From Salinimonas lutimaris (GTDB taxonomy: Bacteria > Pseudomonadota > Gammaproteobacteria > Enterobacterales > Alteromonadaceae), in assembly GCF_005222225.1 (NCBI RefSeq), contig NZ_CP036536.1, forward strand, positions 1,884,001 to 1,948,000: a stretch of 64,000 nt of DNA, given 5' to 3'. Positions 6,976 through 31,006 of the stretch are shown here, piece after piece. The stretch's first letter is position 1. Every line of letters begins with the position of its first letter. The notes beneath the pieces were generated by a model. The model was not told the DNA's origin, searched no databases, and was given only the letters and a program-made list of their open reading frames with translations. A program made the position numbers and the translations under genes.

Positions 6976-7304
6976 GCAGGATTATACAGTGTTACGTCTT
7001 GCGTTTTTTTCTGCGCAGTCAGTTTTTCAAGGCTGACGATAGTTTTAAATTCGGATTCAATGCCACTCACTAATGCATTCCAGTCAGTCTGTTCCAGCCC
7101 GACACGGGAAAGAATAGGCCTGGCGTCATCAGCAATTTTACCTCGCTTGTTAGGGTGAAAGTGGCGCCCGGTTAACTCGACCAGGGCGATATAGTCTTCC
7201 AGCCGAAAAGGGAGTCCGTCGGGTATGTTTTCAGATGGATTTCCTGCAAATGTCAATAGTTGGCCAGTCTGATGTTGGGTTGTAGCAGCGTAACCTATTA
7301 CCAC
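6972..7304 (-). pseudogene. C-terminal fragment of a REP-associated tyrosine transposase (RAYT)
   Basis: 110 residues containing IPDGLPFRLEDYIALVELTG and then HPNKRGKI, which resemble the C-terminal region of IS200-like REP-associated transposases. The catalytic HUH and Tyr motifs lie in the N-terminal part of such proteins and are missing here. The fragment lies between the native ssrA terminator and the TonB receptor remnant, so it belongs to the chromosome flank, not to the integrated element. I infer that an old insertion and deletion removed most of both genes. Confidence 0.55.
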
Positions 7305-7337
7305 AGAAAGTTTTAATTCACGGTCAACAGTACTAAC

Positions 7338-7366
7338 AAAAAAGGCCCGCCAGATGGCGAGCCTTT
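7338..7366 (-). terminator. Native ssrA terminator, displaced from ssrA by the element
   Basis: On the minus strand there is a 12-bp stem with one G.U pair (AAAGGCTCGCCA, loop TC, TGGCGGGCCTTT) followed by six T residues. It lies a few bases beyond the left copy of the att repeat. Before integration it would have stood directly after the tmRNA CCA end, so it is best read as the original ssrA terminator. It is now about 7.2 kb away from ssrA. Confidence 0.75.
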
Positions 7367-7370
7367 GGTG

Positions 7371-7395
7371 TTGGTGGAGCTGGCGGGATTTGAAC
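7371..7395. repeat. attL: left copy of the 25-bp ssrA 3'-end direct repeat
   Basis: These 25 bases are identical to 14532-14556, which form the acceptor end and T-arm of the tmRNA gene. They are the crossover region expected of a tyrosine integrase. The bases before and after differ between the two copies, which sets the repeat length. Confidence 0.92.
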
Positions 7396-7411
7396 TATCC
7401 ATTTTTCTCAT
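7396..7411 (-). other. Detached 5' end of the element's replication gene (start codons)
   Basis: On the minus strand, an in-frame TAA (7426-7424) is followed by ATG at 7411-7409 and ATG at 7402-7400, then GAT, and the frame enters the att core. If the two att copies are recombined, this frame joins the open frame of the replication gene at 14556 exactly (7 + 380 bases before the codon at 14176, i.e. 129 codons from ATG 7402). In the integrated state this short piece is separated from the rest of the gene by the whole element. Confidence 0.75.
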
Positions 7412-7441
7412 AAATTCATATGTTTAGGATTTTAAAGAGGA

Positions 7442-8101
7442 TTATTTGGAAACTCTTCTTTTACCGTGAATCAAAATACAATCCGTTAAATTATGAAAAT
7501 TGCTGTGAGGGTTACTTAGAGGAGTCCCTTGAGCCTCATGTTCTTTCTCCAACCTTATAGCGCCGCGTTTTGCTTTACTATACATAGAAAATAATGTTCG
7601 AGCGCATACTTTTTTACCATTTTTTTCGGAGTAAGGTTCGTGAAGATCCCTAAGTTTTCTCTGTGCTGCGTGCCTATCTAAGTGGGCTGATGAGGTATCG
7701 TAATGAAATATCGGCCATATTTCAAAGCAAGGGTTTGAAAAAGCAACTTTTATTTCATTTTGCTCTGCTAAGTCAAAGGCTTGGGGGATGTTTGGATGCT
7801 CATCCTTATCAAAAACTGCCCAGACCTCAAATATTTTATCTAACGGGTCTCTCGATTTACGAGCAAGCCTTTCCTGTTTTTGCTTTTCTGTTTTAGCTCT
7901 TCGTACTACTGATGTTGGTACACCTGCACCACCAACTAATACAAGCTCAACCAAGCCGTTTCCGGCGCACTTAGCAAAGTTAATAATATAGTCTGGCTCA
8001 GAGTTTTCGCCTTCACAGACAATTATCAGTTTAGGTTTTGGGCTTTTACTTCCGACTTTTCTCGAAATCTTTGATTCCTTTCTGAGTCCTTTCCTAGACA
8101 T
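7442..8101 (-). CDS. rloB: RloB-like protein (AbiLii-type), partner of the adjacent ATPase
   Basis: 219 residues. The N-terminus is basic, then a Toprim-like core begins with KLIIVCEGENSEPDYI (conserved Glu pair), followed by an acidic pair in EVWAVFDKDEH and later SNPCFEIW. These are features of the RloB family. RloB partners an AAA ATPase in RloAB/AbiL abortive-infection modules. Its start overlaps the end of the ATPase gene by 8 bp, so they are translationally coupled. I infer that it is the nuclease-like effector. In the excised circle the replication gene would start about 30 bp downstream of its stop. Confidence 0.75.
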   Translation of the reverse strand: MSRKGLRKESKISRKVGSKSPKPKLIIVCEGENSEPDYIINFAKCAGNGLVELVLVGGAGVPTSVVRRAKTEKQKQERLARKSRDPLDKIFEVWAVFDKDEHPNIPQAFDLAEQNEIKVAFSNPCFEIWPIFHYDTSSAHLDRHAAQRKLRDLHEPYSEKNGKKVCARTLFSMYSKAKRGAIRLEKEHEAQGTPLSNPHSNFHNLTDCILIHGKRRVSK

Positions 8102-9383
8102 CCAACTCCCCCCAATCTATGAACTTATCTAAGACTGGTACTCCTCCAAACCTACCTTCCAAATAGCCCTTTCCAATATTTACTTTGCTATTTACTTTGT
8201 ATTCTAACATTGAGGTAAGAGATGTTTCACCGTAAATATTTCTATCAGTAAACCAAACTTGATCTTTTCTAATTTCATTGTGCGAAAGAAGTGTAGATTC
8301 ATGAGTGCTAAATAGTAATTGAGCCCCATTTTTATTAATATTTTTGTCTAAAAATATATCCAGTATTCTTTTGGTAATAAGCGGGTGTAAACTTGACTCA
8401 AGCTCGTCTACAACAAATATTCCACCTTCATCTATAACTTCAAAAACTTCTGTAAGTATTGAGATAAGAGCGCGAGTACCTAAGCTTTCATCATTAATTG
8501 CAAAGTCAACAATCTCATTTTCATGATTTCTCTTTTTAATAATAATTTTTTTATTGACTAAGCTTTCTTCTGGAAACTCCATGTCAGTATCAAAATTTTC
8601 ACTTAATACTTCGTAAAGTTTTTTCGATAATTCTATCGACTTAGGATCTTGCTCTACGCTGCTAACTTCTATATCTACAATCTCTAAATCTAAGTCTTCT
8701 AAAAATCTAGTTATTCTTTTCGTATTTTTATTTTTTTCGATAGCCTCTGCTAATTTTCTCTCACTAAGATCACTTCCAAACCTAAACTTAAATGATTCAA
8801 AGATGGCCTCAGTTAACTCGATAGATTTCTCATGTTCGAATCTAAGTGCCGCATAAGATAAGAATAGATCTGACTCCTTTATAGATGTAGAAATTGTTTT
8901 ATTCTTACCCTTGAAATCATTTCCAAAATAAAACTGATTCTTTTCAGAACGTTCAAAAAGAGTTTTCCTGGAACGTCTCTTTGAATAGCTATACTCATAA
9001 AGCCACTCTTCTGTGAAAGCCCTTCCTTTTATTTTAAAACCATAGTTGTAATGAACATTGTTTACTACAATGTCAATATCGAACGTCGAGGGCTTATCTA
9101 AGTACTCTGGAATTAACTTAAAGGTACTTACTTTTGGTTTTCTTTTCCCGCCGTCCGCATAAAGTACACAATGATAGAAAAACCTAATTGCTTTTAGGAC
9201 GTTAGTTTTTCCAGAATTATTTGGGCCATAAATCGCTGCAACAGGTAGAGCTGCGTCTATCCCCTTGCCCATGTCAATTAGTAAAGTATCGGTGTTTTGT
9301 TTAAGCTGTTTAGAAGCAGTTAATAGAATCTCTTGATATTCAGAAAATGATCTAAAGTTTTCAAACCCAAATCGTAATAGCAT
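8094..9383 (-). CDS. rloA: RloA-like AAA ATPase (AbiLi-type, OLD/SMC-like)
   Basis: 429 residues. Walker A is GPNNSGKT at 53-60, after the conserved N-terminal LRFGFENFRSF. The C-terminal half holds INDESLGTRALISIL (signature region), Walker B with GIFVVDELESSLHPL, and the switch FSTHESTLL. This is the AAA_15/21 type ATPase found with RloB or other nuclease partners in anti-phage modules. The middle is a charged insertion rich in Lys and Glu. The coding sequence is strongly AT-rich compared with the chromosome, consistent with transfer. It is probably the sensor or regulatory ATPase of the pair; the phage trigger is unknown. Confidence 0.8.
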   Translation of the reverse strand: MLLRFGFENFRSFSEYQEILLTASKQLKQNTDTLLIDMGKGIDAALPVAAIYGPNNSGKTNVLKAIRFFYHCVLYADGGKRKPKVSTFKLIPEYLDKPSTFDIDIVVNNVHYNYGFKIKGRAFTEEWLYEYSYSKRRSRKTLFERSEKNQFYFGNDFKGKNKTISTSIKESDLFLSYAALRFEHEKSIELTEAIFESFKFRFGSDLSERKLAEAIEKNKNTKRITRFLEDLDLEIVDIEVSSVEQDPKSIELSKKLYEVLSENFDTDMEFPEESLVNKKIIIKKRNHENEIVDFAINDESLGTRALISILTEVFEVIDEGGIFVVDELESSLHPLITKRILDIFLDKNINKNGAQLLFSTHESTLLSHNEIRKDQVWFTDRNIYGETSLTSMLEYKVNSKVNIGKGYLEGRFGGVPVLDKFIDWGELDV

Positions 9384-9451
9384 AATCTTCCTATTTGAGT
9401 GGCTAACTCTTAAATTCGAGCTTAAAGCTCATATATTGCCCTTAGAGTATA

Positions 9452-10519
9452 TCATTGTTGCTGTGATATCCACCTTCCATAAACTTTTCTAATCATTCCC
9501 CAATCTGCATGGCCCATTTGCTTCGCAACCCACATTGGATTTTTTCCTTGAGACAACATCATTGAGGCGTAGGTATGACGACACTGGTAAGGGTACCGGT
9601 AGGTTATTTTTAACTTTTCTAGAGTGGGTTTCCAGACGTATTTTCGCAACCCGTCAGCGTATTTGTAGTCATTCATAGTCTTAGGATCAATAAAAACTCT
9701 CTTATTATCAATATAAATTGTGGTTTTTAAACTCTGTATTGCTTCGATGGCTACAGGATGCAGCTCTACTGTTCTGATACTCCCCGCCGTTTTCGGAGCT
9801 TTTTCAATACCAGAAGTTATATTAACCCTAATGTGAGCGACTTCACGATCCAAATCCAAATCTTCCCATCTCAAGCCGAGTAGCTCGCCTGTTCTTAACC
9901 CTGTGTAGAAAGCAAACTGAAAAAATTGTGAGTAGGGTACCGGTAAAGCATTGAGAATCCGTTTGATTTCGTCTTTGCTGAAAGGTTTGGGTTCTTTAGT
10001 ATCTTGCTTATAGCGCTCTATCCTTTCGACTGGATTCTTATCAATCACTTCATCTTGATAAGCACATTTGAATATCTGATTTAAAACATTCCGAGCTTCA
10101 TTTATCGACTTCGCAGAAAGTGAGCTTTCTGACGCCCATTCGTCAAACATGCTGGCCTTGAACTCCGTTAGCTGAAGGGTACCCCAGTTAGGTTTGATAT
10201 AAGAATTATATTTCTGAGAGTAGCCGCGAACAGTCGTATGCGACCACCGACGCTGTTTTTGTTTAAACCAGATATTTGAATAGTCGTGAATAGTATATTC
10301 GCATTGTTTATCGAAAGCCTTCTGAATGATTTTGCTGGTTGAGAACTTATCAGCGAGAGATTTATCGCTCATGCTGATAGCAAATTTGTATATGGATTCT
10401 TGTTCTTCAACCCGCTTAAGAGCTGTTTTGTTATGAGGAGCAGGGACGGTTTCTCTGTAACGCTGATGCCCCAAGGTAAAGTCGATGACATATCCACCTT
10501 TTACTACTTTTACACTCAT
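9452..10519 (-). CDS. int: Tyrosine-family site-specific integrase
   Basis: 355 residues. It has an N-terminal arm-binding region, a SAM-like core-binding domain (about 95-180) and a C-terminal catalytic domain. Visible active-site parts are the Arg in FYTGLRTGELLGLRWEDL, the Arg-His of QCRHTYASMM, the GHADW box and the nucleophile Tyr in RKVYGRW near the end. It is presumed to recombine the 25-bp ssrA repeat. It overlaps the preceding small DNA-binding gene by 4 bp (ATGA), so the two form an operon. Confidence 0.93.
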   Translation of the reverse strand: MSVKVVKGGYVIDFTLGHQRYRETVPAPHNKTALKRVEEQESIYKFAISMSDKSLADKFSTSKIIQKAFDKQCEYTIHDYSNIWFKQKQRRWSHTTVRGYSQKYNSYIKPNWGTLQLTEFKASMFDEWASESSLSAKSINEARNVLNQIFKCAYQDEVIDKNPVERIERYKQDTKEPKPFSKDEIKRILNALPVPYSQFFQFAFYTGLRTGELLGLRWEDLDLDREVAHIRVNITSGIEKAPKTAGSIRTVELHPVAIEAIQSLKTTIYIDNKRVFIDPKTMNDYKYADGLRKYVWKPTLEKLKITYRYPYQCRHTYASMMLSQGKNPMWVAKQMGHADWGMIRKVYGRWISQQQ

Positions 10520-10698
10520 TTTGCATTTTCCTTAAACCACTGATAAACCATTTCAACGACAAAAATCAGTTTGCCGTCAGGTGCTTTGTAATAATGTTCA
10601 TTCTTTATCCACACGCCTTTCTTGACCTTCATATGAATTGCTCCCTTTGAGTAACCGGTCAATTCGGCAAGCTTTTCGGTTGTGACCATCGCGTTCAT
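10516..10698 (-). CDS. Small helix-turn-helix protein, possible excisionase or AlpA-like regulator
   Basis: 60 residues. VTTEKLAELTGYSKGAIHMK is a MerR/AlpA-like winged helix-turn-helix, followed by a short beta wing (APDGKLIFVVEMVYQWF). It sits directly upstream of int with a 4-bp overlap. A recombination directionality factor or int activator is the likely role. Starts at 10698 and 10689 are both possible. The region upstream (10699-10792) separates it from a divergent gene and should hold both promoters. Confidence 0.65.
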   Translation of the reverse strand: MNAMVTTEKLAELTGYSKGAIHMKVKKGVWIKNEHYYKAPDGKLIFVVEMVYQWFKENAK

Positions 10699-10792
10699 AT
10701 TTGTGTACCTCTGTATCGATTGCAGGGCTAGCTTGGTCTCAAAAGGTTTGTTACAACAGTCACATGACGGGTTGTATACGGGTACTACGAAT

Positions 10793-11731
10793 ATGGAAGT
10801 TGAGGAAAAACAGGATGTTGAAGATTTGGAACAGTCGCTTAGATTTGCTAAAAAGTTCTTCCAAATTCACACGCCACAATTAGTTGGAGACCAAATCGGT
10901 GAGGTATTGGTTCTCAAAACACTTGAGCTCATTCAGTCCGAAGCAGTTAATGAGTCGCACTATTATTTCAGGGCTGCTGAAATTTTTGAGCAAATAAACG
11001 GTGAAAAAAACTCAGAGAAAGCTCGGCGCTGGATGAAGTCTCATGATGAAAACTTGGTGGCGCTTTTTGCTCAAACATCAGACCTAAATGTTGGACTAGC
11101 GGATAAGGGTCTATGCACGTTATCAATCGAGAGAATTGAACATAAAGGTGGTAAGCCAAATCAGTGGCGAATTCGGACGGGTAGGGAACGAGTAAAATCT
11201 GCCAACAGAAATGATGCTGCTGATATTAGATACATTGTGACGGCCCTACATGATCCGATGCCATGGGCGAAGCCGTTTATGAATGCGATTTTGTCACCAC
11301 GAATTCTTATCACCGCAGGTCTCACATTACTTACATTAGTCATTATTCCAATATACACGCTACTTGGCATAATTGACTGGTCGAGTAAGCCGATAGCCAC
11401 TTCCGTGGTTGTACTCGGTATCTTTGCAGGGTTAATGTTTCATCGGTTACACGAATTAATGAATAAAGGTGTTACTGAATTTCCTGTACTTTGGTCTAGA
11501 AAGCTAGGGCGAAACAAATTGTTCCTGTCTACATCATCAGGTGTTGAAAATAATCCGCTTGGAATGAAGGCTGTGACCATTGAAGCCAAGTGTTCAATCT
11601 GTGGCGAGGATCTAATAATCGATAAGAGCAGAGAGTTTCATGGTCGCTACATTGGAAAATGCAGAATTGCCCCATCTGAACATGTTTTCTCTTTTGACCA
11701 TGTTACCAAGCGGGGTAAGCTTCTGCGGTAA
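10793..11731 (+). CDS. Uncharacterised membrane protein of the element
   Basis: About 312 residues from the ATG at 10793. The open frame begins at 10682, but that stretch overlaps the divergent regulator and is hydrophobic without a plausible ribosome site. The N-terminal half is soluble and helical with many charged residues. Two adjacent membrane helices follow (about 200-222 and 234-252). The C-terminal domain has a CSICGEDL pair and a later Cys, suggesting a small metal site. It is the only gene of the element on the plus strand. I do not recognise the family. Its position beside RloA/RloB makes an accessory defence role possible, but nothing in the sequence shows it. Confidence 0.6.
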   Translation: MEVEEKQDVEDLEQSLRFAKKFFQIHTPQLVGDQIGEVLVLKTLELIQSEAVNESHYYFRAAEIFEQINGEKNSEKARRWMKSHDENLVALFAQTSDLNVGLADKGLCTLSIERIEHKGGKPNQWRIRTGRERVKSANRNDAADIRYIVTALHDPMPWAKPFMNAILSPRILITAGLTLLTLVIIPIYTLLGIIDWSSKPIATSVVVLGIFAGLMFHRLHELMNKGVTEFPVLWSRKLGRNKLFLSTSSGVENNPLGMKAVTIEAKCSICGEDLIIDKSREFHGRYIGKCRIAPSEHVFSFDHVTKRGKLLR

Positions 11732-11788
11732 CTTAGTTCGTTAAAGGTCAGGTTGTTAAAGAGCTATTTGGATTTCAAATTTGGCAAA

Positions 11789-12244
11789 CTAAGACTTAAC
11801 ATCACTTAAGCGCGGCTGTGCTGTTTGCCATGAACTTTCGTTACTATCTGATGATGAAGCGGGAACCGCCACGAGCTGTTTGAACTCGATAATCTCCATT
11901 TTGTATTTTTTATTCCCAGACCATGTATGGAAATGTTTGCGGGCTTCACTGATATTATTAAATACAGCGGCTTTACTCATTTTGCAGATACGCTGCTTTT
12001 CAGAAAGATAAAGACCATCCTCGTAATGGAAGTGCCAGGGCCAACTATCAGCATGAGCAGGTTCGTAGATACCAACTTGAAAAAACGATTTCTGTACGTA
12101 CTTGTCTCTTAATTCTTCATAGGCGTCGGCAATATTTCGGTATGCCCTTTGCCATTTGCCAGGATGTTTACTTTTGAGCGCCTTAATAAGACGCCTTGTT
12201 TTTGCTTTGTGTAGCAGTACATTAAAGAGTTCTTCGTCTGTCAT
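11789..12244 (-). CDS. Uncharacterised element protein
   Basis: 151 residues, soluble, with a basic helical N-terminus (HKAKTRRLIKALKSKHPGKW) and an aromatic-rich middle (WPWHFHYEDGLYL). The C-terminal tail is Ser-rich and probably disordered. No known motif seen. It lies 20 bp after the SEC-C gene on the same strand and is likely co-transcribed with it and the replication gene. Confidence 0.5.
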   Translation of the reverse strand: MTDEELFNVLLHKAKTRRLIKALKSKHPGKWQRAYRNIADAYEELRDKYVQKSFFQVGIYEPAHADSWPWHFHYEDGLYLSEKQRICKMSKAAVFNNISEARKHFHTWSGNKKYKMEIIEFKQLVAVPASSSDSNESSWQTAQPRLSDVKS

Positions 12245-12264
12245 TATTCATACCGCCATAAGAC

Positions 12265-12675
12265 TTAAACAAACTGTGGTTGAGTCTGAAAACGTACTGC
12301 ACCATGATTTTTCATTGAAAATTCAAAAGCAGCTTCTAAGGTACTGAAAGGGCCGGCTAACTGAATATCTGAACAGTTACCAGTAGTCACAATCACATGA
12401 TCAGTTTCGAACTTATCCGTGTTGTGCATTTCGTTTAACGATTTAGCTGCACCAGTTGAGAGTAAGGATACAAGACAGCAAACGGCTTCTTGGTCGAGAT
12501 CAAACGGTGACATATCTGGCGCACGCTCACGGTTAAAGCCAATATATTGCTCTTTTGGCAGGCTGGCATTATTAGATTCATCTCGTACGAAATGCGCTTC
12601 TGAGATATCAATGCAGCAATGCTTAAACTTCTTACCACTGCCACAGGGGCATTTTTCATTTCTTCCGGTTTTCAT
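12265..12675 (-). CDS. SEC-C motif protein
   Basis: 136 residues. The N-terminus is a classical SEC-C zinc-binding motif, RNEKCPCGSGKKFKHCC (residues 5-21), as found at the end of SecA and at the ends of many stand-alone proteins. The remainder (about 40-136) has no motif I recognise. Role unknown; the motif can mediate protein or nucleic-acid contact. It is probably in one transcript with the replication gene upstream and the 151-residue gene downstream. Confidence 0.65.
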   Translation of the reverse strand: MKTGRNEKCPCGSGKKFKHCCIDISEAHFVRDESNNASLPKEQYIGFNRERAPDMSPFDLDQEAVCCLVSLLSTGAAKSLNEMHNTDKFETDHVIVTTGNCSDIQLAGPFSTLEAAFEFSMKNHGAVRFQTQPQFV

Positions 12676-12738
12676 TTTTTTCTTTCTCGTTTTGGGTTAG
12701 TACAGTTATTTACACAAGTCCAAGATACCTTCGATTTT

Positions 12739-12836
12739 GGCAGGCACGCGGTCACCGCGTGTCTGCCTGCAACCTTCGGTGACCCGCCGAGCCCGGCTCG
12801 ACTGCTCGTCCGTCCCGTGGGGCGGGCGGGCAGTCG
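12739..12836. other. GC-rich cluster of hairpins at the 3' end of the replication gene, possible origin
   Basis: Three foldable units follow one another. At 12739-12767 two 14-base arms surround a single C with one mismatch. At 12788-12800 the arms are CGAGCC and GGCTCG. At 12799-12836 two 18-base arms pair with three T.G wobbles, all with T in the left arm, so the plus strand folds best. The block is strikingly GC-rich inside an AT-rich element and overlaps the last codons and stop of the replication gene. In phage P2 the origin lies inside gene A, so a rolling-circle origin is a fair guess. None of the stems has a T-run, which argues against a plain terminator. Confidence 0.45.
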
Positions 12837-14556
12837 CCCAGCTCAGCAGGTGACGATATGAGCGTCCAGCCTTTATCAGCTATCAGGTATTTGGCAGTAA
12901 CAGAAAGGATTGTTCTAGGCTTGTTGTTGTAAGCGTAGTTAGATAGCAGCTTGGGATCGATATCCTCGAACATGGCCTTAATTTGCTTTTCATACTCAAG
13001 AATGAAAGGACGTTCAGCTTTACGTTTGTTATTGCCGCCCATCATTATTATGTAAGCAAGCCAGTCAGAGGAATCTGCTGCCAGTCGAAGTTGGTCTAGC
13101 CCTGCATCTTCAATTTTTCCATCAATTCGGCGCAGTTGACGCCACAACGAAACGGAGGGAAGGCCAAAGAATTGAAATTGTCTGATTTTGAATAGTGAGG
13201 CCCAAGCTGTAATTCTTGAGGCTGCAACTTTGGCATCATTGCCGTATTTGTCAGTATCTAGGTATTCACCATCGATATTCTTACAGATATATTTAGCTAT
13301 ATAGTCCTGTGCAGAGCCTTTCTCATCTTTGATTTGCTCAGCTTTAAAACGACTATTCTTTGCTCCGTTTTCATTACCCTCATGCTCCATGGCATAGTGG
13401 CGAAGAATTTCTGTGACTCGCAGTACTTTTTCGGGTGGCATGAATAACATCAAATGCCAGTGAGGGGTACCATCGTGATGCGGTTCAACAACGCGTAATC
13501 CGTATACTTTGATTTCTTCTCTATCGAACTGTGCTCGCGCTTTTCGCCACTGCGAGTTTAAGTACTCGCTGGCATCTTTGACTGATAGTTTTTGATGTTT
13601 AGGATTCGGCTTACCTGATTTGTAGTGTGAATGATACTTTGATGGTGTGGTTAGTGTGTAAAACCAGCCACAGTCACCTTGTAACTTTGAAAACTCCTCT
13701 GTGCCTTTAACGCGGACCATGAGTTCAGCACGTCTTATTTTCGGGTTTGAAACGTTGGAATTGTATGCATCCAACATTGATATAAGCTCCCCATTAGCAC
13801 TGCAAAACCATTTGTTCTCCATGAAAGCGTGAGCTTGTTCTTTTTCCCATTGATGCTGTTTGAGTCTATCGACGCTGCAATACGCACTTTTCGCTTGATT
13901 GATAAGGTCAAGTTGTCGGCGTACCTCTTCCATCTTTTGCGTAGCCAGTGTCTTTATCTTTTTAAACCAGAACTTTTCAGAGCGCAGTAGGTGAAGGGCT
14001 TCGGTCTGTGACATATCATCAGATATAGAAAACCCGTAACGACTGAACTTAGACCTGCAAAAGTGAAATGCCGCCTCGGCACTCATGTGCGCTGTATCTC
14101 TCAGGCACTGGAGCGCTTTCTGTTTAGCAAACATTTTTAATTCGGAAATATCGTTCGACAGATTGAGATCAGCCACTTCAAGTTGCCTGTCTAATCTGGC
14201 AAGGAAACGATTCGCTTCGATATAGCTCTTTTGTCTACTAATTCTGAGGTATTTATGTGCTACGTCATAAGCGATAGGCGATAACTTATCGAAAATGCGT
14301 TTGCGGAATAAATGACATTCTCGTGTACCGATGCCGCTGGTAAGCGAATCAGGTGAGGTGACAGATTCACGACATACAGATACAGATTCACGACATACAG
14401 ATACAGATTCACGACTCTTTGAAGCCCTTTCAGGAACAAAGGAGAACGATTGGTGGTTAGATTGAAATTCGCTGGAAGCAGCGTTTTTAGAGGGATAGAG
14501 CGGTCTAGAAAGTTCTAGACCGCATCTGGTATTGGTGGAGCTGGCGGGATTTGAAC
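12752..14556 (-). CDS. P2 gpA-type HUH replication endonuclease, 5' end cut off at attR
   Basis: Counting from the in-frame GTG at 14176 there are 474 residues. The HUH motif is PHWHLMLF (His 239 and 241) and the two-Tyr motif is YIAKYICK (Tyr 292 and 296), as in phage P2 protein A. Such enzymes nick the origin and start rolling-circle replication. The frame stays open upstream of 14176 through attR into ssrA (stop at 14596-14594) with no ATG, GTG or TTG. The upstream residues (ECHLFRKRIFDKLSP, then IEANRFLARLDRQLE) look like the normal N-terminal domain, so 14176 is internal. In the excised circle the frame gains ATG 7402 or 7411 and encodes 603-606 residues. As integrated, the gene has lost its start and upstream region. 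Confidence 0.8.
14361..14415. repeat. 21-bp tandem repeat, 2.6 copies
   Basis: Units at 14361-14381 and 14382-14402 are identical (ACAGATTCACGACATACAGAT) and a third partial copy covers 14403-14415. The period of 21 keeps the replication frame and encodes a repeated RESVSVC heptapeptide on the minus strand. It may be a protein linker or an iteron-like protein-binding site. Confidence 0.8.
14500..14523. repeat. Perfect 11-bp inverted repeat beside attR
   Basis: Arms GCGGTCTAGAA and TTCTAGACCGC are separated by AG, 8 bp from the att repeat. There is no T-run on either side. It could be a binding site for the integrase partner or the replication protein, or a weak substitute terminator for ssrA transcription. 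In the circle it lies within the early codons of the replication gene. Confidence 0.75.
14532..14556. repeat. attR: right copy of the 25-bp repeat, forming the ssrA 3' end
   Basis: Identical to 7371-7395. It restores the tmRNA acceptor and T-arm, so integration keeps ssrA intact. The frame of the replication gene reads straight through this copy. Confidence 0.92.
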
Positions 14557-14890
14557 CCGCGTCCAGAAAATGTCTACTTTTGGTACTACATGCTTAGTTT
14601 GTCTTTTGTTTAACTACTTTAGACCCCGACAAACAGGGTTCCTGGTAGCTGTCCTGATACTATTTCGCGGTTCAACCTCAGGAGAGTTTCCCTCGCTAGT
14701 TTGCTTAGATGACCTTCCGAATCCACGCTAGCAAACAAAGCTGTGGTGGAAGGGCCTATACCGGTTATTAAGCGGCTAGTGCGTAGTTTTCGTCGTTTGC
14801 GACTATTTAAATGCGGCTTTTTTAAGAGGCAAACCGCACCTCTGCATGCACCTCCAGCGTCCTAGATCCTGTCGAATCCTAATCAGCCCC
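14533..14890 (-). ncRNA. ssrA: tmRNA (trans-translation RNA)
   Basis: 358 nt. The 5' end is GGGGCTGATTAGGATTCGAC and the 3' end carries the T-arm and a genomically encoded CCA. The tag frame (14800 down to 14768) reads ANDENYALAA followed by two stop codons (TAA TAA), which directs tagged proteins to ClpXP/ClpAP. tmRNA works with SmpB, whose gene is 1.6 kb away. The 3' end is the attachment site of the element. The native terminator now lies beyond the element, so transcripts may read into it before 3' processing. Confidence 0.97.
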
Positions 14891-14897
14891 GGAAGTC

Positions 14898-14926
14898 ATT
14901 TGCTTAAACATTGCTATCAATGTCAA
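14898..14926 (-). promoter_or_regulatory. ssrA promoter
   Basis: On the minus strand TTGACA (14926-14921), a 17-bp spacer and GCAAAT (14903-14898) stand 7 bp before the tmRNA 5' end. The -35 box is a perfect consensus; the -10 box matches it in only three of six positions. Confidence 0.6.
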
Positions 14927-15164
14927 AACGAACCCGTAGTCTAGCGTTAATTACTGCACTACACAAGCGATTATCACTTGTTGCTGAACTAACTGGTCAC
15001 AATTTTACCAAGTGATATCAATTACTTTGCGAACAGAAACAATAATGGGTGCGGTTGTGAGAAACACAACCCCTGCGTGAAAATTTGTAAAGATGCAATT
15101 TAGGGCAATTACCGCTAAAGTATGGCAAATTTTTTCAGCCAACCAGGTAAGCCACCACATTACC

Positions 15165-29863: not shown

Positions 29864-31006
29864 TTACTCCAGGGAAATGTCCTCCAGTTCCCAATAGCCC
29901 TTATTAACCAGTATAGCTAATAGTTCAAAAAATGCACAGCCTGTTGTATCCAGCCAGCTGTCATCAATCACGTCACCCTCGATCAGACGAATGCAATTAT
30001 CCTGCATAGTGGCGGCTACCGTGAACATCTCGCCATTGACATAAAAGTCAAAGGTACTGCTGTGTGGGGCAGGCTGACGATAAACCGGGCGGGTTCCAGG
30101 ACTGCGGTATACCAGCTGACCGTTGTTCAGAGCGTCTTGCAAAGAGGCGGCGGTAGCCAGCGTATCGGGCACCATTTCCGGAAGGTGCTGATCGCTGAGC
30201 ATGCGCATCAGGCTGGTTTGCCATTCTGGTTTCTCCAGCGCGTTTTGCAGCAGACGGGTCAGTTGTTGTAAATCGGCATCCTCCACCAGAGCAGGCCGTA
30301 CAGCCTGTGCCCGGGCCGGGTCTGTGAAGCGCTGGCTGTCGGTGGGCTGTTCTTCAAATACCGCAGTCAGTGTATCACTGAGCTGGGCCTGGTCAGGGGC
30401 ACGAAAGCCGACCGAATAGGTCATGCAGTCTTCCAGCGCTACGCCATCGTGTGGCCAGCCGGGAGGAATATACAAAATATCGCCCGGCTCGAGCACCACA
30501 TCCAGTACCGGTTCAAACGGCGCAATCTGCTGGAGCTTTGGATGAGGATAAACCGCCTGATGCTCGCCTGGCCGGCCTACCTTCCAATGTCTGCGTCCTT
30601 TACCCTGCACCAGAAAAACATCGTACTGGTCCAGATGCGGACCAACACCGGCGCCCTGGGTGGCAAAGCTGACCATCAGATCATCCATACGCCAGTAAGG
30701 CAGAAAGCCAAACGCATCCATCAACAGGGCTGCTTCGTCTACGTAACGGTCGACCGCCTGAACCAGCAGCGTCCACTGGTCTTTACAGACCTCGGAAAAG
30801 TCATCAAACGGCCCTGCGGTCATTGTCCAGTCATTGTCTTTATGACTGATAATACGACTATCCACTTCTTCCATTTCACTGAGACCGGCCAGATCGTGCT
30901 CATCCAGAAAGTCTGCAAAATGGTCGAATCCACGACGGATCACAAAGGGTTGTTGTTGCCAGTAAGATTTTAGAAAGGCGGCGGTGTCCAGATTTAATGT
31001 AAACAA
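29864..31006 (-). CDS. roxA: Ribosomal protein uL16 3-hydroxylase (JmjC oxygenase)
   Basis: 380 residues of the RoxA/YcfD cupin family. The Fe(II) ligands are the His and Asp of GPHLDQYDVFLVQGKGRRHW and the His of YIPPGWPHDGVAL. It hydroxylates an Arg of ribosomal protein uL16 using 2-oxoglutarate and oxygen. The C-terminal winged helix region ends with FFELLAILVNKGYW. The start appears to be TTG at 31006; no ATG is near in frame. Confidence 0.9.
   Translation of the reverse strand: MFTLNLDTAAFLKSYWQQQPFVIRRGFDHFADFLDEHDLAGLSEMEEVDSRIISHKDNDWTMTAGPFDDFSEVCKDQWTLLVQAVDRYVDEAALLMDAFGFLPYWRMDDLMVSFATQGAGVGPHLDQYDVFLVQGKGRRHWKVGRPGEHQAVYPHPKLQQIAPFEPVLDVVLEPGDILYIPPGWPHDGVALEDCMTYSVGFRAPDQAQLSDTLTAVFEEQPTDSQRFTDPARAQAVRPALVEDADLQQLTRLLQNALEKPEWQTSLMRMLSDQHLPEMVPDTLATAASLQDALNNGQLVYRSPGTRPVYRQPAPHSSTFDFYVNGEMFTVAATMQDNCIRLIEGDVIDDSWLDTTGCAFFELLAILVNKGYWELEDISLE

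Follow-up and report, generated by a model that had tools for sequence, protein, structure and literature searches.

The window analysed here is a 64,000-nucleotide stretch of the Salinimonas lutimaris genome (NZ_CP036536.1, positions 1,884,001 to 1,948,000), which is a single 4.12-Mb contig, and it carries an integrative element of about 7.2 kb (positions 7371-14556 of the window) inserted in the transfer-messenger RNA (tmRNA) gene ssrA. The element is bounded by two exact 25-bp copies of the ssrA 3' end, namely attL at its left end (7371-7395, att core copy 2) and attR (14532-14556, att core copy 1), the latter being both the 3' end of ssrA and part of the reading frame of the replication initiator gene rep. 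The two copies are 7161 bp apart, and the repeat listing places the 25-bp core inside a 35-bp repeat that is 91% identical. From the left, the element encodes rloB, rloA, an integrase (int), an excisionase-like gene (xis), a divergent conserved gene, two small genes and rep, and ssrA itself (14533-14890, minus strand) lies directly upstream of rep in the same direction. A terminator-like hairpin on the host side of attL (7341-7366, minus strand) is probably the ssrA terminator displaced by the element. The terminator scan of positions 7200-15100 alone proves nothing, because 5 terminator-like sites were seen and 7.0 were expected in shuffles; the segment 7336-7395, which includes the hairpin, is continuous with ssrA in another genome (G268, locus L202; G and L numbers denote genomes and loci of our collection), where ssrA runs directly into the sequence that lies beyond attL in the window (61 bp, 95%) and represents a precise empty site. 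A tyrosine integrase, an excisionase-like gene, att repeats and an empty site, by which a site-specific integrative element is recognised, were all found for this element.

The rep body (12752-14531, minus strand) encodes a gpA/P12-type HUH initiator (PF05840, 9.8e-83, 278 bits against a cut-off of 31.4; PHROG 91, 4.1e-137) and has no start codon in the integrated state. It belongs to a single open frame on the minus strand (12752-14596, 613 residues between stops) that remains open up to 14593, inside ssrA, and in which the earliest ATG, GTG or TTG is a GTG at 14174-14176. A preliminary description of this locus had reported that the frame passes through attR into ssrA without any start codon before 14176, which proved correct to the base. 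Two ATG codons, at 7411 and 7402, are stranded at the left end of the element (7396-7411, minus strand) in phase with rep across the att core: 7402 + 7161 gives 14563, which agrees with codon starts at 12754+3n, and the ATG at 7411, which begins 30 bp past the rloB stop, is likewise in phase. The spacing of 7161 bp thus bears out the earlier claim that a Rep of 603 or 606 residues, starting 30 bp past rloB, is predicted when the ends are rejoined, with the phase being derived from arithmetic and separate translation of the two pieces. Integration takes away the start codon of rep.

Related elements were collected from 295 genomes of the family, one genome scan, 394 genomes of the order, 59 genomes of the genus and viral contigs, with only the best-scoring loci considered in every search. 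The family search matched 74 of the 295 genomes, and 16 of the 23 regions fetched contained split Reps. Only strong matches were used from the order-level search with query A1; the weak A1 matches near 1e-4 are probably tmRNA genes, because the A1 rows include ssrA-encoded residues. In all 18 elements with both att copies identified, a start codon of the rep frame opens into att copy 2 (ATG in 16 and GTG in two) and stands 1 to 13 codons ahead of it, while in the other two frames an ATG or GTG opens into this copy in 3/18 and 0/18 elements. The possibility that the attachment site might not join the frames, raised in the preliminary description, is answered by the same 18 elements, in each of which the att copies keep the frames in phase. 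Considering that these elements are related, they do not represent independent events, and the count shows maintenance and not repeated origin of the arrangement. Two loci (L058 and L060) were omitted from this tally, their second att copies being 13- and 15-bp repeats only; L058 has only a TTG at its left end, and L060 has an ATG but no integrase between its repeats. A prior tally of 15 elements, which included these two and lacked L051, L078, L196, L222 and L223, had given an ATG in 13, 3 and 0 elements in the same order of frames. In two further loci (L057 and L228) the contig ends put the second att copy out of reach.

The att spacing among the 18 elements ranges from 4.65 to 9.07 kb. The element of L223, whose Rep is 96.7% identical to that of the window, has a spacing of 6526 bp and nevertheless carries an ATG in frame at its left end. 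In two other ssrA islands that lack this Rep (L221 and L226), the frame is closed 18 and 7 codons past the core. The relatives carrying a split Rep include Alteromonas confluentis KCTC 42603 (L003) and A. oceani S35 (L004), and one member (L196) comes from another family of the order.

For phylogenetic analysis, 88 Reps were aligned, one (L167) was dropped for gaps, and split labels, which were also given to L049 and L055, were assigned before tree building. In the tree of 87 Reps, the 21 split Reps form one clade (SH-like support 0.99) with none of the 66 unsplit Reps inside, which shows that, as far as Rep sequences tell, the split arrangement has its ancestry in a single clade. Seventeen of the 21 are set directly at the tmRNA gene, and the other four (L049, L051, L055 and L078) fall within the clade though they are not directly at this gene. 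The Reps of L049 (G180) and L055 (G083) lie about 22 kb and about 37 kb from the tmRNA gene, a separation that we read as the result of islands that entered ssrA later. The core of L049 happens to be abutted by an in-frame GTG that belongs to the neighbouring sequence. L051, a 5.6-kb contig starting inside the core, was considered as a circle and rejected, as its ends do not overlap and host flank is present past the second core, so that it is an integrated copy. Outside the clade, an unsplit Rep with its own ATG is located 362 bp from a tmRNA gene (L198). A class-level search (E <= 1e-120) matched 7 of 369 genomes, in which the six loci outside the window's genome (L189-L194) have no split at the tmRNA gene. 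The window's genome also contains a second, unsplit Rep of the same superfamily (G000:C1:88447-89499; L002 and L068), which has its own ATG and shares 39% identity. It may serve as a natural control and as a possible source of Rep in trans.

The residues upstream of the GTG at 14176 appear to belong to the protein. The PHROG 91 match covers residues 89-540 of the rep frame and, with this GTG at residue 140, extends upstream of it. PHWH (H378, H380) and YIAKY (Y431, Y435), which we take to be the catalytic HUH and tyrosine motifs of Rep, are invariant in the 18 aligned rows. The preliminary description had named homologues whose full length begins at 14176 as counter-evidence; such a start is seen in none of the 18 aligned Reps of the split clade, and the upstream region is under protein-level constraint. 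Over the 53 codons just upstream of this GTG, the ratio of non-synonymous to synonymous differences per site (pN/pS) is 0.17 against L003 and 0.10 against L004, and 0.35 and 0.31 against L046 and L047. A predicted model of the frame from just past the core (592 residues, 24-row alignment) has a mean predicted local distance difference test score (pLDDT) of 79; its residues 1-57, adjoining the core, are below 50, and four predicted helices (60-66, 70-82, 84-100 and 103-116) precede the GTG (model residue 119); the block mean is 61 for the first helix and 83-92 for the other three. This pattern suggests that the att core is located in a flexible leader and that translation from 14176 would leave the fold incomplete. 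The proposal that the upstream residues represent the normal N-terminal domain of gpA-type proteins therefore holds from about residue 58 past the core, and the first 57 residues are instead a variable, low-confidence linker. A 21-bp tandem duplication within this linker (14361-14402; seven codons, frame kept) is absent from L223. By eye, TCTAGACC-like motifs are repeated right after the core (14497-14524 in the window and the first 40 bp in several relatives), which are possible candidates for integrase or Xis arm sites within the rep coding sequence.

These data bear on the possibility that an internal start, such as the GTG at 14176 in the window, gives rise to a shortened Rep with an active or regulatory role in the integrated copy. 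This GTG is indeed present with the Phage_GPA match downstream of it, some members have earlier internal starts, and the repressor of mycobacteriophage BPs is active in a truncated prophage form (PMC4557955). However, the earliest internal start ranges from codon 1 to codon 134 past the core in the 18 aligned rows, and because these positions vary so widely, no short form of Rep is conserved. Besides, four predicted helices that are under constraint would be missing from a Rep started at 14176, and in-frame ATG codons are scarce in the rep frame only (see below). We thus consider a functional short Rep quite improbable. A chance open frame across attR or a decaying pseudogene, which could be suspected from the many partial Rep matches in the family search, is scarcely credible in view of the in-phase starts in 18/18 elements, the single clade, and purifying selection on both sides of the earliest internal start.

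In the 70 codons past the core, the 18 elements contain 2 ATG codons in the rep frame versus 31 and 27 in the other two frames. When ATG, GTG and TTG are taken together, they account for 13 of 1400 codons past the core in 20 split Reps (L055, in which the recognisable core is lost, was left out of this start count) versus 191 of 4620 in the first 70 codons of the 66 unsplit Reps, and GTG makes up 2 of the 46 Val codons in the 70 codons past the core. It might be argued that coupling and not silencing is what matters, namely that circularisation puts rep last behind xis, int and cargo genes and that the loss of the start is only a by-product tolerated by the linker. The orientation of xis, int and cargo toward rep in 12 of the 13 elements with int, the weak constraint on the N-terminal linker, and the replication operon of SNJ2, which is assembled by circularisation (PMC13107129), are all compatible with this idea, but on this view the scarcity of in-frame starts in either of the above counts would not be expected, and we consider the idea unlikely. 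Another possibility is that a near-cognate codon within the element serves as the start of Rep, in which case integration would not silence it. One relative outside the clade (L197) lacks ATG, GTG and TTG for 133 codons, implying that unseen starts may exist among relatives. In the window, a single ATC is the only CTG, ATT, ATC or ATA codon between the core and the conserved GIGT motif; it is located at the motif itself and has no evident Shine-Dalgarno sequence by eye, which makes a near-cognate start very improbable.

A conserved 23-bp site (12702-12724, minus strand) at the 3' end of rep, which is intact in the integrated copy, is a probable rolling-circle origin with the nick site of Rep. 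It is the sole match in the window at up to 3 mismatches, with none in 100 shuffles. Within 250 bp of the rep stop, 20 of the 21 split Reps have the site at up to 2 mismatches (17 of them exact), and with up to 3 mismatches it was present in 12 of the 14 unsplit Reps examined. Phage P2 has one match in 9.5 kb, with 3 mismatches, at 29889-29912, which contains the annotated nick site at 29892. Judging from this alignment, 12702-12724 is homologous to the annotated P2 nick site, and because of this match it is read as a rolling-circle origin; for the same reason, the integrated copy would keep its origin and lack only the start of Rep. If so, the integrated state is one in which full-length Rep supplied in trans would be harmful. 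The annotated "cleavage site" of PM2 was also considered as its origin and dropped, since the conserved site lies elsewhere in gene XII. The 23-bp site appears to be hyper-conserved at the ends of gpA-type rep genes in very different elements, and may be useful as a marker for rolling-circle origins.

An integrated element with a rolling-circle origin must stop its initiator from nicking the chromosome, and a repressor is usually assumed to do so. Here, we propose a recombination-controlled on/off switch for Rep, which we regard as highly probable from the sequences compared: attP is located inside the 5' end of the initiator gene, and the start is lost on integration. In the circle, translation of rep would begin at the ATG at 7402 or 7411, in a short leader at the left end, the att core would be read as codons, and a flexible linker and then the folded Rep would follow. 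Integration by Int into the ssrA 3' end would cut rep within its leader, leaving the start at attL and the rep body at attR behind ssrA, without a start and with the origin at 12702-12724 intact. Because the ssrA terminator appears to have been moved 7 kb away (the hairpin at 7341-7366 beyond attL), ssrA transcription may enter rep, and even given such read-through the integrated rep would be untranslatable as full-length Rep. Excision by Int and Xis would restore the start of rep directly behind xis, int and cargo on the same strand; since these genes run toward the rejoined start, Rep would be the last product in the circle. Full-length Rep would thus be made from the circle only, and only the excised circle would be able to replicate. 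We infer that the element excises in vivo, that translation crosses attP, that ssrA is read through, that the origin-like site is used, and that an unnicked chromosome is a benefit. Avoidance of rolling-circle firing from the chromosome would be such a benefit, and gains support from the retained origin-like site and the depleted in-frame starts. It is likely, although we hold this with somewhat less confidence than the switch itself, that the clade has kept attP in the Rep leader, kept the origin and avoided in-frame starts, such that integration acts as a replication off switch and no repressor of rep is needed. DNA topology thereby appears to take the role of a repressor, as rep has no start unless the ends are joined, and the arrangement would represent a simple genetic AND-gate (excised, and operon expressed) that one clade, spanning at least two bacterial families, has maintained. 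It also calls for caution in annotation: integrated split Reps are open frames without starts, and are liable to be called truncated or mis-started.

Several observations weigh against this proposal. No natural circle or attP junction was found in the plasmid, phage and viral-contig searches. A DNA search of plasmids gave no match, and in a protein search that matched 69 plasmid and 324 phage records, none of the matches listed reached at least 60% identity or covered 80% of the query; among the best 80 viral contigs, one had a split Rep (L078) and it was integrated. At the left end, GTG takes the place of ATG in two of the 18 elements, and no clear Shine-Dalgarno sequence was seen by eye ahead of the window's ATG codons. 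Past the core, the linker is weakly constrained: all 5 changes that separate the window from L223 in the stretch from core to domain are non-synonymous (0 synonymous), and pN/pS over the first 14 codons reaches up to 2.2. Conservation right after the core may stem from DNA sites and not from the protein. The amino-acid make-up of the linker could explain the shortage of starts in part, and early internal starts are present in L050 (TTG at codon 1), L061 (TTG at 19), L056 (GTG at 25), L051 (ATG at 28) and L047 (ATG at 30). No origin-like site stands within 250 bp of the rep stop in L060. Finally, L197 (G736:C31), which is outside the clade and for which no att repeat was found, has no ATG, GTG or TTG in its first 133 codons either, and an absent start alone is therefore weak evidence.

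The other genes of the element were compared among 14 elements. The tyrosine integrase (9452-10519, minus strand; PF00589, 2e-17; PHROG 1, 2.4e-64) belongs to the same cluster in 13 of them, and the excisionase-like protein (10516-10698, minus strand; PHROG 539, 2.3e-7, no Pfam match) in 12. A divergent conserved protein (10682-11731, plus strand), whose true start may be farther downstream, has no Pfam, PHROG or PADLOC match, occurs as the same cluster in 10 of the 14 elements, and is a candidate excision regulator. Of the two small genes, an open reading frame (ORF) at 11789-12244 (minus strand) has no match in these three databases and was found in the window only, and a SEC-C motif protein (12265-12675, minus strand; PF02810, 1.6e-9) shares its cluster in 5 of the 14. 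The cargo consists of RloA/AbiLi ATPase (8094-9383, minus strand; PF13304, 5.2e-34; PADLOC AbiLi, 3.5e-81) and RloB/AbiLii (7442-8101, minus strand; PF13707, 1.7e-30; PADLOC AbiLii, 7.8e-21). The order of rep followed by xis, int and cargo is conserved, with cargo on the strand of rep in 12 of the 13 elements having int; several cargo ORFs of L059 point the other way. In the elements inspected, defence-type genes occupy the slot between int and attL: the window has AbiL, L047 a type VI retron-like reverse transcriptase, L052 PD-Lambda-2 B and L004 PDC-S02. The scan that gave the last three covered eight cargo proteins, of which three had no match and one had weak coiled-coil-like matches only. 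Since the slot holds differing defence-type genes, the element family may be a shuttle for such genes. Among the eight ORFs of the window element that were scanned, no match was detected to virion structural Pfam or PHROG families, which would characterise Corticoviridae or a PM2-like provirus, or to packaging or capsid-remodelling families as compared with satellites of the phage-inducible chromosomal island (PICI) and P4 kind.

The preliminary description regarded mycobacteriophage repressors as the closest known logic. The likeness is valid in that attP lies inside an ORF and integration alters the product, and the list of comparable systems needs to be extended to archaeal integrases, inovirus regulators and SNJ2. 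In BPs and its relatives, the repressor that gives immunity loses its C-terminus on integration and is active in the short form (PMC4557955), whereas here an initiator loses its start. The suicidal integrases of SSV1, pTN3 and pT26-2 also have an att site inside a gene that is split by integration, and a review calls such recombinases exclusively archaeal and proposes a single origin in one superfamily (PMC8371274). There, the integrase is split, in archaea; in the bacterial element of the window, rep is split and int (9452-10519) is whole and internal, which rules out a suicidal integrase. In the haloarchaeal provirus SNJ2, replication genes become linked to the integrase operon when the provirus excises and circularises, and a new ORF spans attP (PMC13107129), but the initiator ORF19 and the attP-spanning ORF26 are separate proteins, whereas here the junction completes the frame of Rep itself. 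In the inoviruses XacF1 (ORF12) and phiRSS0 (ORF13), attP is inside a phage gene that is split or shortened by integration (PMC4076744, PMC3816273); these are possible regulator genes, integration is by XerCD at dif, and the truncation in phiRSS0 is C-terminal. In ICEKp1, integration at a tRNA gene displaces the terminator of this RNA gene, so that transcription from the host promoter enters the element's first gene (PMC13023037). This acts on int transcription, whereas here it is rep translation that would be lost. P2 gpA and PM2 P12 belong to the same protein family as Rep (PF05840), and the origin-like site matches the annotated nick site of P2 and has a counterpart with 3 mismatches within PM2 gene XII. 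However, P2 gene A and PM2 gene XII are whole in the annotations, and the annotated attP of P2 is located beside int and not in A; att terms are absent from the text of a paper on PM2-like prophages (PMC1950889). No description of an initiator gene completed by attP was found in our literature search, in which subscription journals were thinly covered. Taken together, the kind of mechanism is known, both as attP inside repressor, regulator or integrase genes and as replication operons assembled by excision, and what appears to be new, as far as this search went, is the initiator as the split gene, the loss of a start rather than of a tail, and the clade in which this arrangement is found.

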